From positions 1-40,660 of IMG/VR virus record IMGVR_UViG_3300042731_010106: DNA of 40,660 nucleotides; one strand, given 5' to 3'. Made by a program: the position numbers and the translations under genes. The stretch is from a virus. The notes below the pieces were generated by a model. The model was not told the DNA's origin and searched no databases. It saw nothing but the letters and a program-made list of their open reading frames with translations. Shown in pieces: positions 10,595 through 22,711 of this stretch (positions are counted from its first letter, which is position 1; each line of letters begins with the position of its first letter).

Positions 10595-10642
10595 AATTTT
10601 TCTTGCCTATTTTTGTTACGTTTGTTACATTTAGGAGATAGA

Positions 10643-11197
10643 ATGCAGGAATATGAAGTAACAACCATGACACCAACAACAGTTCCAAAAAACCTGAAAA
10701 TCGGGTATGATCTTGTCAAAAATCTTATTTTCTATCAGGTTCATTCATTTCATCGTCGCTATGGTGGCATTGTAGATGATTTAATTGGTGAAGCAAATCT
10801 CGCTTTTGTAAAAAGCCATAATCAATATATTACTGGAAAAGGAAAGGGGGGAAAAATAATATATGATTATGCATCATATATCAAGAACGACATCTGGTAT
10901 CGTTTATTTGATATAATGCGTCTACATATAAGAAGAAAACATATTTTAAAAATGACGTCGATTGATGATGCTATTGATATTCCTGACAAAAATCTTGATT
11001 TATTTGCCCTGAGTCGTGACGCTAGATTCGTCGTGGCTCTGGCATTGGACCCACCTGATTATATTACATCAATAGCTGAAGCAAAGGGGGGAGAAAATAA
11101 AAATTACCGGAGTACTATACGTAAATTTTTACATGATCAGAAATGGTCTTCAGCAAGGATAAAACGTGTTTTTACTGAAATCAGATCCATTGTATAA
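10643..11197 (+). CDS. Sigma factor-like protein
   Basis: The ATG at 10643 is chosen over an upstream in-frame codon at 10613 because AGGAG stands seven bases before it, giving 184 residues. Residues about 38-95 resemble sigma-70 region 2: YGGIVDDLIGEANLAFVKS, then YASYIKNDIWYRLFDIMR, as in the core-binding helices. The C-terminal part (IRKFLHDQKWSSARIKRVFTEI) could be an HTH like region 4. Phage proteins of this type redirect host RNA polymerase to later promoters. The match is by pattern only and the -10-recognition residues are not obvious, so a helical DNA-binding protein is the alternative. Confidence 0.55.
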   Translation: MQEYEVTTMTPTTVPKNLKIGYDLVKNLIFYQVHSFHRRYGGIVDDLIGEANLAFVKSHNQYITGKGKGGKIIYDYASYIKNDIWYRLFDIMRLHIRRKHILKMTSIDDAIDIPDKNLDLFALSRDARFVVALALDPPDYITSIAEAKGGENKNYRSTIRKFLHDQKWSSARIKRVFTEIRSIV

Positions 11198-11281: not shown

Positions 11282-13672
11282 ATGAAACCGTATAAATATC
11301 AAAAAGAAGGAATTCTACAAATGGAATCCTTTCTTGAAAAAACAGGTGGGGCCCTTCTTGCAGATGATATGGGCCTCGGGAAACGAATTATTTGTGAAGA
11401 AAACCTGGTAACTCCGGAAGGCTTTACTAAAATGAGGGATATAAAATGCGGTGACAAGGTTATCGGTTGCAATGGAGAGCCTACTACTACGATAGGTGTT
11501 TATCCAAACGGAAAGCAAGATGTTTATGCCATTGATTTTAGCGATGGTGTTTCTATTGAATGTGGTCCTGAGCATTTATGGGCGGTTCGTGATTATAACT
11601 GGAAAAGATATAAAAAAAATCACAATAACAATGGCTGGTATGTGCTTTCCGTTGAAGACATGTTAAAGAGAAAACCAATAAAAACACATAGTAAACAACC
11701 GCTATTCTGGATACCGCGACAAAAACCAACACGTCACACAAAAAAACCGCTTCCTGTTGATCCCTACTTTATCGGTGTTATAACAGGAAATGGCTTTTAT
11801 TATGGTAAAAATCTTTATATTACTTTGGGAAACAAGGATCATGAGTCAATAGGTACAAATATTCCAAAACCACAAAGAATAAAAAATACAAAAGGATGTA
11901 AAAAATATTATTATAATGCAGAAATGAAATACCTTTTCAATAAAACAGGACTATATGGTAAAGGCGTAAATAAAACAATTCCAGAAATTTATATGGTTGG
12001 ATCCATTCATCAAAGAACAGAACTTTTAAGAGGGCTAATGGACATAAATGGATCTTGTCATAGAAACAGGACAGTATTTCATACGCATTCAAAAAAACTT
12101 TCGTATCAAGTAAAGCAGCTTGTAGACAGTCTCGGTGGATACGCTACAATATGTTTCCATGCCCGAAACGATTTACAAGAAACAGATATTCAAGTAAGAA
12201 TGGAGCTTGATTTTTGTCCTTTTAATATAAAAAGAAAATCAAAAAAATGGAAACCCAAGAACAGGAAAAGAAAAAGAGGAATTATAAATATTCGATATGC
12301 AGGAAAGAAGGAATGTCAATGCATTGCTGTTGATTCTCCTGACCATCTATATCTTGTTGGTACTGGATATGTTCCAACACATAACACAATACAGACGCTA
12401 TGGCTTTTGAAACGATCAAAAGTGTCCCTCATGTTCCCCGCACTGATAATATGTCCAGCAAATGTAAAATACGCCTGGGAACATACTGCTCTTACTCATA
12501 TAAACACCAGAGCCCAGGTACTCGAAGGGAGAACGCCTTTACCCAATACTTTTGGAATCATCCCTAAAATTATCATAATAAATCCTGATATTCTGATAAA
12601 CTGGTTATCATTTTTATTAAATATAAATATAAAAACATTGATTTTTGATGAATGCCAGTATTACAAGGAACTGGCAGCCATACAGACAAAAGCTGCTCTT
12701 ACTCTGGCAAGGAATATTCCATACAAAATTGCATTGAGCGGGACCCCTCTTTTAAACCGACCTTATGAACTATGGCCTACTTTACATATGATCCAACCGG
12801 AGAACTTCCCTGCGTTCTATTCATTTGGAAAGGCTTTCTGTAAACCAAGAAAAAAGTATGGAAAGTGGGAGTATAAGGGGGCAGATAATATTCCGGAACT
12901 TCATAAACTATTGAAAAAAACCTGCATGGTCCGAAGGCTTAAAAATGAGGTAATCCCTGATCTTCCAAACAAGATACGACAGGTAATTCCTGTAAAGCTA
13001 ACCAATGAAGAGGAATATAAAAAAGCAAATGCTCATTTTACACAATGGTTACGTGAGAACTATTCAGGACAAAATGTTGAAAAAGCCCTGAGAGCTGTTG
13101 CTATCACTAAAATAGGGTATCTTCTCAGATTGTCTGCACGACTTAAATGCAAAGCAGTGATTGAATGGATAAACAGGTTTCTTGCTACATACCCGGATAA
13201 AAAAATTGTAACATATGCAATTCATCATAAAATGATACATGTACTTCAGAAACACATTAATTGTAAACATATAACTGTTGATGGTTCAGTCATTGGAAGA
13301 AAACGCCAGTATGCAGTAAACAAGTTCCGCAAGGATAAAAACACAAAAGCCTTTATCGGAAATATCAGAGCCGCAGGAATAGCAATTGACGGACTGCAGG
13401 AAGTATGTGCTGATATGGTTTTTGTAGAAATGTACTGGAGACCGGGTGATCATACACAAGCGGAAGATCGACTTTATCGTGTTGGACAAAAAAAACATGT
13501 GAAGATTACCTATCTCATTGCTGGAGGAACAATTGAAGAAACCCTGTGCAGGATAATTCAGGAAAAACAGAAAATAATCCGCGGGATTCTTGACGGGGGA
13601 GCTACTCCTGATGATATTAACGTTTTTGATCAGCTACTAAAGGCTTTAAACAATGAATCGAAAAAACTTTAG
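11282..13672 (+). CDS. SNF2-family helicase interrupted by an intein
   Basis: The mature helicase is about 462 residues once the intein is removed. It begins YKYQKEGILQM with ADDMGLGK (27-34) as the first half of Walker A; TIQTLWLLKR continues after the intein. Then come IIINPDILINW, a DECQ box (motif II), IALSGTPLLNRPYELW (motif III) and the C-terminal RecA lobe ending in AEDRLYRVGQ (motif VI). Such short SNF2 proteins in phages remodel DNA or displace proteins at forks. The intein sits exactly in the ATP-binding site, so the enzyme is inactive until splicing. The stop overlaps the following ribbon-helix-helix gene by 20 bases. Confidence 0.92.
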   Translation: MKPYKYQKEGILQMESFLEKTGGALLADDMGLGKRIICEENLVTPEGFTKMRDIKCGDKVIGCNGEPTTTIGVYPNGKQDVYAIDFSDGVSIECGPEHLWAVRDYNWKRYKKNHNNNGWYVLSVEDMLKRKPIKTHSKQPLFWIPRQKPTRHTKKPLPVDPYFIGVITGNGFYYGKNLYITLGNKDHESIGTNIPKPQRIKNTKGCKKYYYNAEMKYLFNKTGLYGKGVNKTIPEIYMVGSIHQRTELLRGLMDINGSCHRNRTVFHTHSKKLSYQVKQLVDSLGGYATICFHARNDLQETDIQVRMELDFCPFNIKRKSKKWKPKNRKRKRGIINIRYAGKKECQCIAVDSPDHLYLVGTGYVPTHNTIQTLWLLKRSKVSLMFPALIICPANVKYAWEHTALTHINTRAQVLEGRTPLPNTFGIIPKIIIINPDILINWLSFLLNINIKTLIFDECQYYKELAAIQTKAALTLARNIPYKIALSGTPLLNRPYELWPTLHMIQPENFPAFYSFGKAFCKPRKKYGKWEYKGADNIPELHKLLKKTCMVRRLKNEVIPDLPNKIRQVIPVKLTNEEEYKKANAHFTQWLRENYSGQNVEKALRAVAITKIGYLLRLSARLKCKAVIEWINRFLATYPDKKIVTYAIHHKMIHVLQKHINCKHITVDGSVIGRKRQYAVNKFRKDKNTKAFIGNIRAAGIAIDGLQEVCADMVFVEMYWRPGDHTQAEDRLYRVGQKKHVKITYLIAGGTIEETLCRIIQEKQKIIRGILDGGATPDDINVFDQLLKALNNESKKL
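11384..12385 (+). mobile_element. Class 3-type intein with decayed LAGLIDADG endonuclease
   Basis: The 334-residue insert spans residues 35-368 of the precursor. Splicing blocks are clear: LVTPEGFTKMRDIKCGDKV (block A), GPEHLW (block B, W100), CQCIAVDSPDHLYLV (block F, C347) and VPTHN before T369. Residue 1 is Arg, not Cys or Ser. Missing nucleophile at position 1 together with W in block B, C in block F and Thr at +1 is the signature of class 3 inteins. The endonuclease motifs are FIGVITGNG (163-171) and LRGLMDING (249-258 region). Both lack the final Asp, replaced by Asn (170 and 257), so homing activity is probably lost. Confidence 0.88.
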
Positions 13673-13988
13673 AAGAATGACAACCTTGAACATTCGTAAA
13701 GTTCCAGTTGACATAAAATCACAATTCAAGGCATATTGCGCCCGGCATGGCTATACAATCCAGGAAGCCATAATTGCCCTGCTGAAATATTCAGCACGAC
13801 AGGATATCATTCTTCCTGGAATACATTCAATGCATCTACCTAAAGTAAATAGAAAATGTATAACAGGTGAATATATGGAGTTATGGAAAAACGGGGAAAA
13901 TGAAAAAATCAGCCAAACCACAAATCCGCCCAAAGAGATAATAAAAATTCTCCGGAAAATGAGTACAATCAAGACGAAATCAATATGA
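13653..13988 (+). CDS. Ribbon-helix-helix-like protein
   Basis: The 111-residue protein has TLNIRKVPVDIKSQFKAYCA followed by GYTIQEAIIALLKYSAR at about 10-48, matching a ribbon-helix-helix DNA-binding fold, with an unassigned C-terminal half ending in basic residues. A second possible start is the ATG at 13677, which removes eight residues and still keeps the domain. It overlaps the helicase gene upstream and shares ATGA with the primase downstream, so the three are co-translated. It may repress the operon or aid primase loading. Confidence 0.65.
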   Translation: MNRKNFRRMTTLNIRKVPVDIKSQFKAYCARHGYTIQEAIIALLKYSARQDIILPGIHSMHLPKVNRKCITGEYMELWKNGENEKISQTTNPPKEIIKILRKMSTIKTKSI

Positions 13989-19746: not shown

Positions 19747-20042
19747 TGCAGCCTTTGTTTGCTGAAATTCTGACAACTGATGAAAAATCCACTTATGCTG
19801 TGGCTTGGGTTTTCAGTAAACCGGTACTACGAAAATATACTGGTGAGAATCATTATAAAAGAGCCTGTGAATGGATAACAAGCTGGCAGCAACATTTTGA
19901 CCGTGAATGGTTTTTTGTAAAAGATGTCTTTACGAAAACCATGGATGAATTCATTAATGTCCTTTCTCTACATGGTGTCAAAAGTGACATGCTTTTAAAA
20001 GTCAAAAAAACCATTCTGGAGCATTCCGTTTTGTATGAATAA
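19743..20042 (+). CDS. Hypothetical protein between clamp and UDG-exonuclease
   Basis: I do not recognise this 99-residue protein. The ATG at 19743 (or 19746) is preferred over in-frame codons inside the clamp gene because GGGGGAG lies just before it and it forms an ATGA overlap. It starts MMQPLFAEILTTDEKS, is rich in Trp and aromatics (WVFSKPVLRKY, WITSWQQHF) and overlaps the UDG-exonuclease gene by eight bases. The tight packing shows that it is translated with the polymerase-associated genes. Confidence 0.6.
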   Translation: MMQPLFAEILTTDEKSTYAVAWVFSKPVLRKYTGENHYKRACEWITSWQQHFDREWFFVKDVFTKTMDEFINVLSLHGVKSDMLLKVKKTILEHSVLYE

Positions 20043-21267
20043 AGGATTTTTTAGTACCACAAAAATAATCCCGCAGCGACGCACCAGAAGCATTCCGCAA
20101 TGTGGGGCTTGTGGGTTGTATCGGGGATGCATATCCCCCCGTATGCCAGTAACTGGTGATGGGGGTCGGAAAGTATTATTTGTTGCAGAAGCCCCCGGAA
20201 GGAATGAAGATGAACAAGGAATCCAGCTTATTGGAAAAGCAGGTCAGTATCTACGTCGAGTTCTTCTACATCTTGATTTTGATTTGGATGAAGATGCATG
20301 GAAAACAAACGCTATCATTTGTCGGCCACCCGGGAACAGGAGTCCTACTTCCGCCGAAATATCCTATTGTGAACCGAATCTATTTTTAGCAATAAAGGAA
20401 TACCGGCCAAATGTGATAATTCCTCTCGGGGGAGCTGCAATTTCAGCGGTAATCGGGCCTTTACGTCCTGGCGATGATATTGGGCAAACTGGTCGATGGA
20501 TAGGATGGAATATACCGGATCAGACGCTTAACGTCTGGATATGCCCGACATGGCATCCATCATATCTTCTCCGACAATCCGATAGTGTATTAAACAGACA
20601 ATTTAAAGAGCATTTAAAAACCGCTATTGCACATAATGAACGCCCATGGACAGAAGCGCCTCCAGACTGGAAAAAAGATATAAAAATAGTACTTGATCCA
20701 GAAGCCGCCGTAAAGTGGATTAAAAAATGTGCCAAAATGAAAACTGGTGCGATTGCATGGGATTACGAAACAAATTGTTTGAAACCCGACTGGCAGGAAT
20801 CAAAAATAGCTTCCTGTTCAATAGCATGGGGACGATATGAACCAGAGAAATGTATTGCTTTCCCATGGAGCAAGTCGGTTGTTCCAGCAATGCAAAAATT
20901 ATTAAGCAGTCCTGTTCCCAAAATCGCCTCAAATCTGAAATTTGAAAACCGATGGACAAAAAAAGAATTTGGACATTGTGTCCGGACGTGGGTGTGGGAT
21001 ACAATGCTTGCTGCTCATGTGTGTAATAACCGGAGTGGGATTACCAGCGTAAAATTTCAGGCATATGTCCGTCTTGGTGCGCCATTATGGAACCAGAAGA
21101 TTGATCCATTTTTAAAATCAAGTAAAAACTCACATTTTAACAAGGTTTTTGAAGCTGATATTGAAGATTTGCTGCTTTACAATGGGCTTGATTCCATTCT
21201 GGAATTCCGGGTTGCATGTGATCAAATAAAGGAATTAGGTGAGGAGTTGCCATGGTATAACGGTTAA
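20035..21267 (+). CDS. Family 4-type uracil-DNA glycosylase fused to DnaQ-like 3'-5' exonuclease
   Basis: In 410 residues there are two enzymes. The N-terminal glycosylase (about 15-205) has the four cysteines of the 4Fe-4S family (C23, C26, C96, C112), motif 1 EAPGRNED (52-59) and motif 2 HPSYLL (174-179). It removes uracil from DNA. The C-terminal part (about 236-400) is the proofreading exonuclease seen at the front of family A polymerases: D243 and E245 (WDYETN), N300/E304 (SNLKFENRW) and Y382/D386 (YNGLDS). The second-motif Asp is Glu, a conservative change. The polymerase is a separate gene 73 bases on. Uracil excision, proofreading and synthesis are thus linked. Confidence 0.85.
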   Translation: MNKGFFSTTKIIPQRRTRSIPQCGACGLYRGCISPRMPVTGDGGRKVLFVAEAPGRNEDEQGIQLIGKAGQYLRRVLLHLDFDLDEDAWKTNAIICRPPGNRSPTSAEISYCEPNLFLAIKEYRPNVIIPLGGAAISAVIGPLRPGDDIGQTGRWIGWNIPDQTLNVWICPTWHPSYLLRQSDSVLNRQFKEHLKTAIAHNERPWTEAPPDWKKDIKIVLDPEAAVKWIKKCAKMKTGAIAWDYETNCLKPDWQESKIASCSIAWGRYEPEKCIAFPWSKSVVPAMQKLLSSPVPKIASNLKFENRWTKKEFGHCVRTWVWDTMLAAHVCNNRSGITSVKFQAYVRLGAPLWNQKIDPFLKSSKNSHFNKVFEADIEDLLLYNGLDSILEFRVACDQIKELGEELPWYNG

Positions 21268-21340: not shown

Positions 21341-22711
21341 ATGAAAAAAATTGACGGATATAGGCTCCTTCATCAGGGTGTTATTGCTTTATCGGAAATG
21401 GAAGCGAATGGAATGCGTATTGATATTTCATATCTTGATAAAGCTACCAAGGAAATAACAGACAGAATAAAAAATCTTGAGGAGAAATTACGTGGATGTA
21501 AAGAGTATAAACTCCAGCGCCGGAAATATGGAGCAAAAACCAATTTGAATAGCCGCCTGCAACTTGGTTCTGTTTTGTTTAATGATATGGAATATGAACC
21601 CCTTTCCCGTACTGCCACTGGTCGTACACAGGTCAATGAAACCGTTCTGGAAAAGATAAACACAAAATACACACGGGGGTTTATTCGACTTGAAAAGCTC
21701 AATAAACTGCTTTCTACTTATTTGTATGGTATAAAACATGAGCTATGCGGAGAATATGTTCATGCTTTTTTCGGTCTCCATCTCGTTACTAGCTACCGGG
21801 GACAATCTGATAGCCCGAATCTGCAGAATATTCCGATTCGTGATCCAGTACAAGGGCCTATTATAAGAAAAGCTTTTATTCCTGAAAGCGGATCCGCTCT
21901 TGTGGAAATAGATTACTCATCTGCAGAGGTTCGGGCTGCATGTGCATTATCTGGTGATGAAAAATTAACATATGACGCAATACAAGGAGATATGCATCGG
22001 GATATGGCAGCAGAATGTTACATGTTAAATAAAAAAGATGTGACTAAAAAAGTGAGGCAGGCAGGGAAGAATAGTTTTGTTTTCCCTGAGTTCTATGGTG
22101 ATTATTATAAACAGGTTTCAGCAAATCTTTGGGAAGCTATTGAACGGAATAAATTGACCACTGCTTCTAAAACGTCTCTTTATGATCATTTACTTTCAAA
22201 GGGAATAACCAGTTGCGGAAAATGTGATCCCGATGAAAAAGCAATTCCCGGAACCTTTGAATTTCATATTCAGCAAGTCGAGGACCGATTCTGGAATAAA
22301 CGATTCAAAGTATATAATGCAAAGCGCAAGCAATGGATCGAAGACTATAATAATCAGGGATATATTGATCTTGTAACCGGATTCAGATGTAATGGACCTA
22401 TGACAAAAAATCAGGTGATAAACATGCCTATTCAGGGACCCGCTTTTCATTGCCTTCTCTGGTCCCTTGTTAAGCTAACAAAAGAACTAAAACGCAGGAA
22501 AATGAAAACAAAATTAATATGCCAGATTCATGATAGCATAATTGCCAACGTTCCTCTTGTAGAACTTGATGATTATTTGATACTTGCCCAAGAAATAACA
22601 ACCAGGAAAATACGGGAAGAGTGGAACTGGATAACCGTACCACTGGTTGTAGAAGCTGAAGTATCCACAACAAATTGGTATGAGAAGAAACATATTAACA
22701 TAGGAGTATAA
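21341..22711 (+). CDS. Family A DNA polymerase, catalytic domain only
   Basis: The 456-residue protein holds the palm, fingers and thumb of a PolA enzyme: SYRGQSDSPNLQNIPIRDP (151-169), motif A VEIDYSSAEVRAA with D191, motif B with R239, K243 and YG at 252-253, and motif C QIHDSI with H397 and D398. It has no exonuclease domain; that lies in the gene before. An insertion with SCGKC (291-295) follows motif B. GCAGGA stands seven bases before ATG. This is the likely replicative polymerase, working with the clamp and clamp loader. The split falls exactly between the exonuclease and polymerase domains. Confidence 0.92.
   Translation: MKKIDGYRLLHQGVIALSEMEANGMRIDISYLDKATKEITDRIKNLEEKLRGCKEYKLQRRKYGAKTNLNSRLQLGSVLFNDMEYEPLSRTATGRTQVNETVLEKINTKYTRGFIRLEKLNKLLSTYLYGIKHELCGEYVHAFFGLHLVTSYRGQSDSPNLQNIPIRDPVQGPIIRKAFIPESGSALVEIDYSSAEVRAACALSGDEKLTYDAIQGDMHRDMAAECYMLNKKDVTKKVRQAGKNSFVFPEFYGDYYKQVSANLWEAIERNKLTTASKTSLYDHLLSKGITSCGKCDPDEKAIPGTFEFHIQQVEDRFWNKRFKVYNAKRKQWIEDYNNQGYIDLVTGFRCNGPMTKNQVINMPIQGPAFHCLLWSLVKLTKELKRRKMKTKLICQIHDSIIANVPLVELDDYLILAQEITTRKIREEWNWITVPLVVEAEVSTTNWYEKKHINIGV

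Follow-up and report, generated by a model that had tools for sequence, protein, structure and literature searches.

Class 3 inteins are marked by a tryptophan at position B:12, a cysteine at F:4, and a threonine at G:5 (PMC5050341, PMC7664689, PMC5222942), a combination abbreviated here as W-C-T. Two solved inteins with this signature, MsmDnaB (6bs8) and MchDnaB1 (6rix), share the splicing fold of the phage intein described below (Z about 20, 30–32% identity) but are nuclease-free mini-inteins hosted by DnaB. A class 3 intein in the Snf2 protein of Deinococcus radiodurans has been characterised (Brace et al. 2010, as cited in PMC5222942). The present intein likewise belongs to class 3 and sits in an SNF2 protein, a likeness drawn from that citation. 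The TerL inteins of mycobacteriophages resemble it in being carried by phages, in including class 3 members, in interrupting ATPase motifs, and in possessing a LAGLIDADG nuclease (PMC5050341), but their host protein is the terminase. These inteins are splicing-competent, and the two tested nucleases cleaved their intein-free sites, with those of Bethlehem and Baka among the TerL nucleases tested (Kelley et al. 2016, PMC5050341).

Two further inteins serve as references for the nuclease domain. PhoVMA, like the present intein, has a full-length LAGLIDADG domain without the catalytic Asp residues, and its nuclease was shown to be inactive (PMC8966425). In contrast to the present intein, it starts with Cys1 (class 1 type), resides in an archaeal VMA, and has its block E Asp deleted rather than replaced by Asn (PMC8966425). 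PI-SceI, the yeast VMA intein, has the same two-domain fold, with D218 and D326 at the positions of N136 and N222 in the present intein, but belongs to class 1, is an active nuclease, and contains an extra DNA-recognition region.

Intein insertion in the SNF2 helicase gene

The window, by which we mean the whole stretch of DNA analysed (positions 1–40660; 40,660 nucleotides), is a phage record containing genes for the head, the tail, and replication. Its terminase is closest to that of Croceibacter phage P2559Y (40% identity), and no tRNA gene was found in window positions 1–40660. Two neighbouring ORFs, in different frames and with a 73-base gap between them, share the match to the PHROG DNA polymerase family phrog_17, with 20035–21267 covering profile positions 478–830 and 21341–22711 covering positions 837–1237. 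By eye, the former resembles a uracil-glycosylase-type part combined with an exonuclease and the latter a family A polymerase; a split gene and a frameshift are both candidate causes of the two-ORF layout.

The gene of interest, which like its parts described below lies on the + strand, is an ORF of 796 residues at 11282..13672 (stop included), identified from Pfam matches and its translation as an SNF2-family helicase containing an intein. The SNF2-rel_dom match is split over ORF residues 6–580 (E 2.2e-27), and Helicase_C falls under its Pfam cut-off (19.8 vs 23.5 bits). Alignment with intein-free homologues shows the N-extein (11282..11383) extending up to the first half of the Walker A motif, ...DDMGLGK. 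The class 3-type intein that follows (11384..12385), delimited by tblastn, alignments, and a structure model, is 334 residues long, with Arg first and Thr-His-Asn last. The C-extein (12386..13672, stop included) begins with Thr+1, which is the Walker A threonine, and contains the remaining helicase motifs.

An earlier note, made from the sequence, had placed an intein at 11384–12385 in the SNF2 Walker A motif, exactly between GLGK and TIQT, and had named a spliced product of 462 residues as the one to test for. The placement is borne out. Excising ORF residues 35–368 and joining the flanks in silico gives a 462-residue SNF2 protein with a continuous Walker A motif (DDMGLGK-TIQTL), and intein-free phage homologues, from Thermus phage MN1, a human-gut phage contig, and Cellulophaga phage phi13:1, run without interruption across the site, which reads GLGKTVQ, GLGKTLQ, or GLGKTFE. 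Cys38 was considered as an alternative first residue of the intein and rejected, as the alignment places the junction directly after GLGK, like in the relatives.

A tblastn search with the intein matches 661 phage records, in 483 cases across 80% or more of the intein, which is far beyond chance. Single-sequence searches of viral_contigs found no close relative of the intein or of the spliced helicase, and relatives in viral_contigs were found with alignment queries instead. Inteins are abundant in IMG/VR at this same SNF2 site, and the Walker A motif is the commonest target of related inteins, in many kinds of ATPases.

Splicing signature and predicted fold

We compared the intein with its relatives in a set of 113 inteins that are less than 80% identical to one another and that includes the window intein. 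In intein numbering, with ORF numbering in brackets, block B contains His64-Leu-Trp66 (H98 and W100; 11573..11581), block F contains Cys313 (C347; 12320..12322), and block G contains Thr332-His333-Asn334 (366–368; 12377..12385). Trp66, Cys313, and Thr332 occupy B:12, F:4, and G:5, respectively, with Cys313 the expected initiating nucleophile of class 3 and Asn334 the residue that would cyclise. These residues are nearly invariant in the set (His64, Cys313, His333, and Asn334 in all 113, Thr332 in 112, and Trp66 in 109). The earlier note had correctly identified R35, W100, C347, and T369, and its tryptophan and cysteine of the trio stand; the threonine of the published signature, however, is T366 in block G and not T369 at +1.

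Class 3 splicing needs no Ser, Cys, or Thr nucleophile at residue 1, which in this intein is Arg. Residue 1 is Ala in 51 of the 113 inteins and mixed in the rest, including Gly, Ser, and Glu, while Arg occurs in two, the window intein and L014. Arg at residue 1 is unremarkable and is evidence neither for nor against class 3. The score of the splicing domain is typical of the family (rank 47 of 113). The signature residues support assignment of the intein to class 3, and from them we infer splicing by the class 3 mechanism.

An AlphaFold2 model of the intein (pLDDT 93) agrees with this assignment. Its splicing part has a Hedgehog/Intein fold near that of the solved class 3 inteins, matching MsmDnaB with Z 20.8 and an rmsd of 1.5 Å over 124 residues at 32% identity, and MchDnaB1 with Z 20.1. 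Taken as a whole, the model aligns with PI-SceI across 320 residues (Z 26), with two LAGLIDADG helices in a pseudo-symmetric arrangement, and a folded nuclease domain is predicted; the LAGLIDADG_3 match is under its Pfam cut-off, at 15 bits.

The class 3 inteins that have been tested suggest by analogy that Cys313, forming a triad with His64 and Thr332, would attack the Lys34-Arg35 bond (ORF numbering). The signature suggests that the acyl group would then move to Thr+1 and that cyclisation of Asn334 would release the joined 462-residue helicase. Because the intein splits the ATP-binding loop, the precursor should be inactive until it is spliced.

Asparagines at the nuclease catalytic positions

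Catalysis by LAGLIDADG nucleases is understood to require acidic residues. In an alignment of PI-SceI with a profile built from 98 relatives, Asn136 (N170; 11789..11791) falls on D218 at the catalytic Asp site of motif 1, Asn222 (N256; 12047..12049) on D326 at that of motif 2, and the conserved Lys197 (K231; 11972..11974) on K301. Both LAGLIDADG helices of the window intein therefore end in Asn rather than in an acidic residue. The Asn reported in the earlier note at ORF residue 170 is present, and so is the second, although at position 256 and not at 257, which is Gly. A sequencing error may lie behind either of the two Asn codons.

Within the 113 inteins, motif 1 Asn occurs in seven and motif 2 Asn in the window intein only (1/113), frequencies that are rough because the set was partly gathered with patterns favouring Asp at motif 2. 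The closest relative of the window intein, L100 (42% identity), pairs with it in the tree with an SH-aLRT of 98% and shares N136, but keeps Asp at motif 2 (D222). L100 is also syntenic, with counterparts of the gene at 10613–11197, of the SNF2 gene, and of the primase at 13985. The tree needs six changes to explain motif 1 Asn, and its strongly supported branches force at least three. When viral contigs were scanned for DPYxxGxxxGNG, nearly all readable loci among the matches listed were class 3-type inteins, and among those matches the DxDG of motif 2 was mostly intact. Motif 1 Asn is widespread among class 3-type inteins (L208–L287 and L354–L473, among the matches listed), including a large family whose C-extein starts with SELAAA. 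The Baka TerL intein has Asp at both motifs. One contig, L211, has two inteins of class 3 type in separate genes, both on the - strand, and these differ in their nuclease-motif residues, with one having Asn at both.

The earlier description of the endonuclease as dead-looking thus holds in that both Asp sites are Asn, but motif 1 Asn alone is no sign of death because it is a recurrent class 3 variant, under purifying selection in relatives where this is measurable. Only the second Asn appears to add weight to inactivity, and the nuclease is probably inactive, less certainly than the earlier note implied. Judging from the PI-SceI equivalence and from PhoVMA, the second Asn probably abolishes double-strand cleavage, a loss that would leave this copy immobile or nearly so. 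The first Asn, common to L100, belongs to a recurrent natural variant. Overall, we favour, with a probability of about 0.75, a splicing-competent class 3 intein, carried by a phage in the SNF2 Walker A loop, with a nuclease probably inactivated by the double Asn.

Activity, decay, or regulation

A nuclease that is still alive, with Asn sites that nick or cleave slowly, either directly or after deamidation of Asn-Gly to Asp, would keep the intein mobile, and we consider this unlikely. Asn dominates the replacements of Asp at both motifs (35 Asn, 1 His, and 0 Tyr among non-Asp hits at motif 1 in genome contigs; 23 Asn, 2 Tyr, and 0 His at motif 2 in viral contigs), which counts in favour of this reading, but these scans set Asn against His and Tyr only, with the transition alternative Gly not counted on an equal footing, and the Asn counts are not independent events, as the one large SELAAA... 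family accounts for part of the excess and Asp-to-Asn is a transition. In the nuclease domain, the median dN/dS is 0.13 for Asn/Asp (GNG) inteins (47 pairs, 39 members) and 0.20 for Asp/Asp inteins (276 pairs, 48 members), with example pairs having 13 synonymous vs 3 non-synonymous codons. From the value of 0.13, the Asn/Asp type of domain is maintained by selection where this is measurable, which speaks for activity; that constraint, however, belongs to Asn/Asp and not to double-Asn inteins, and no informative dN/dS pairs were found for the Asp/Asn or double-Asn classes. Double-Asn copies do occur in a few other lineages, including L353 at the SNF2 Walker A site, and the nuclease half of the window intein is better conserved than its splicing half relative to L100 (95.8th percentile among 3324 similarly divergent pairs). 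Against activity stand the absence of the acidic residues and the inactivity of PhoVMA without them. Applied more widely, this reading would give many class 3 phage inteins a working, maintained nuclease with the motif 1 Asp replaced by Asn in an Asn-Gly pair, and a few lineages, including that of the window intein, an Asn at motif 2 as well, a picture that we consider unlikely. The Asn-Gly site may be a nickase, may hold metal through the amide, or may become active slowly as the Asn deamidates to Asp.

The late-stage decay put forward in the earlier note, with prolonged neutral drift of the nuclease alongside preserved splicing, is not supported. The nuclease score relative to the splicing domain is the second lowest of 113 (z −2.29), and with the catalytic columns masked in a larger set it is the 15th lowest of 190 (z −1.74), which counts in favour of drift. 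However, of the nuclease columns with at least 80% conservation just four are broken, by the two Asp changes, T221I, and L282I, the other signature residues are nearly all intact, the predicted fold is intact, and identity to L100 is higher in the nuclease (45%, with 57% in the motif 2 half) than in the N-terminal splicing part (32%). Long decay is thus distinctly unlikely. Because only the second Asn, with the adjacent T221I, looks lineage-specific, any loss of the nuclease was probably recent, and in our reading the window intein and L100 form a clade that has diverged yet is constrained, the second Asn being a recent change within it. A better example of decay is another SNF2-site intein, L152:2220-3026, in which the nuclease region is shortened and strongly eroded (residual z −5.8). 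Very unlikely, in our judgement, is the regulatory role also raised in the earlier note, with the window intein retained to keep the helicase off until splicing is triggered by a signal. Such a role would suit an insertion in the ATP-binding loop and an intein common to the syntenic L100, and a mycobacterial DnaB intein is described as an oxidative stress sensor (PMC6195587); but because so many ATPases are targeted at Walker A, the insertion site says nothing on regulation.

Neither a class 3 intein in SNF2 nor an Asp-less, dead intein nuclease is new, as both are already published in the Deinococcus Snf2 intein and PhoVMA, respectively, and the window intein is one further case in a large, well-described class. 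The change of the motif 1 Asp to Asn is usually taken as death of the nuclease, and yet it recurs in class 3 inteins of phages, whose nuclease domains are under purifying selection wherever this is measurable. Either Asn-type sites are still partly active, or the domain is preserved for some other purpose, such as folding or DNA binding, and annotation from the motif alone would miscall Asn-type nucleases.
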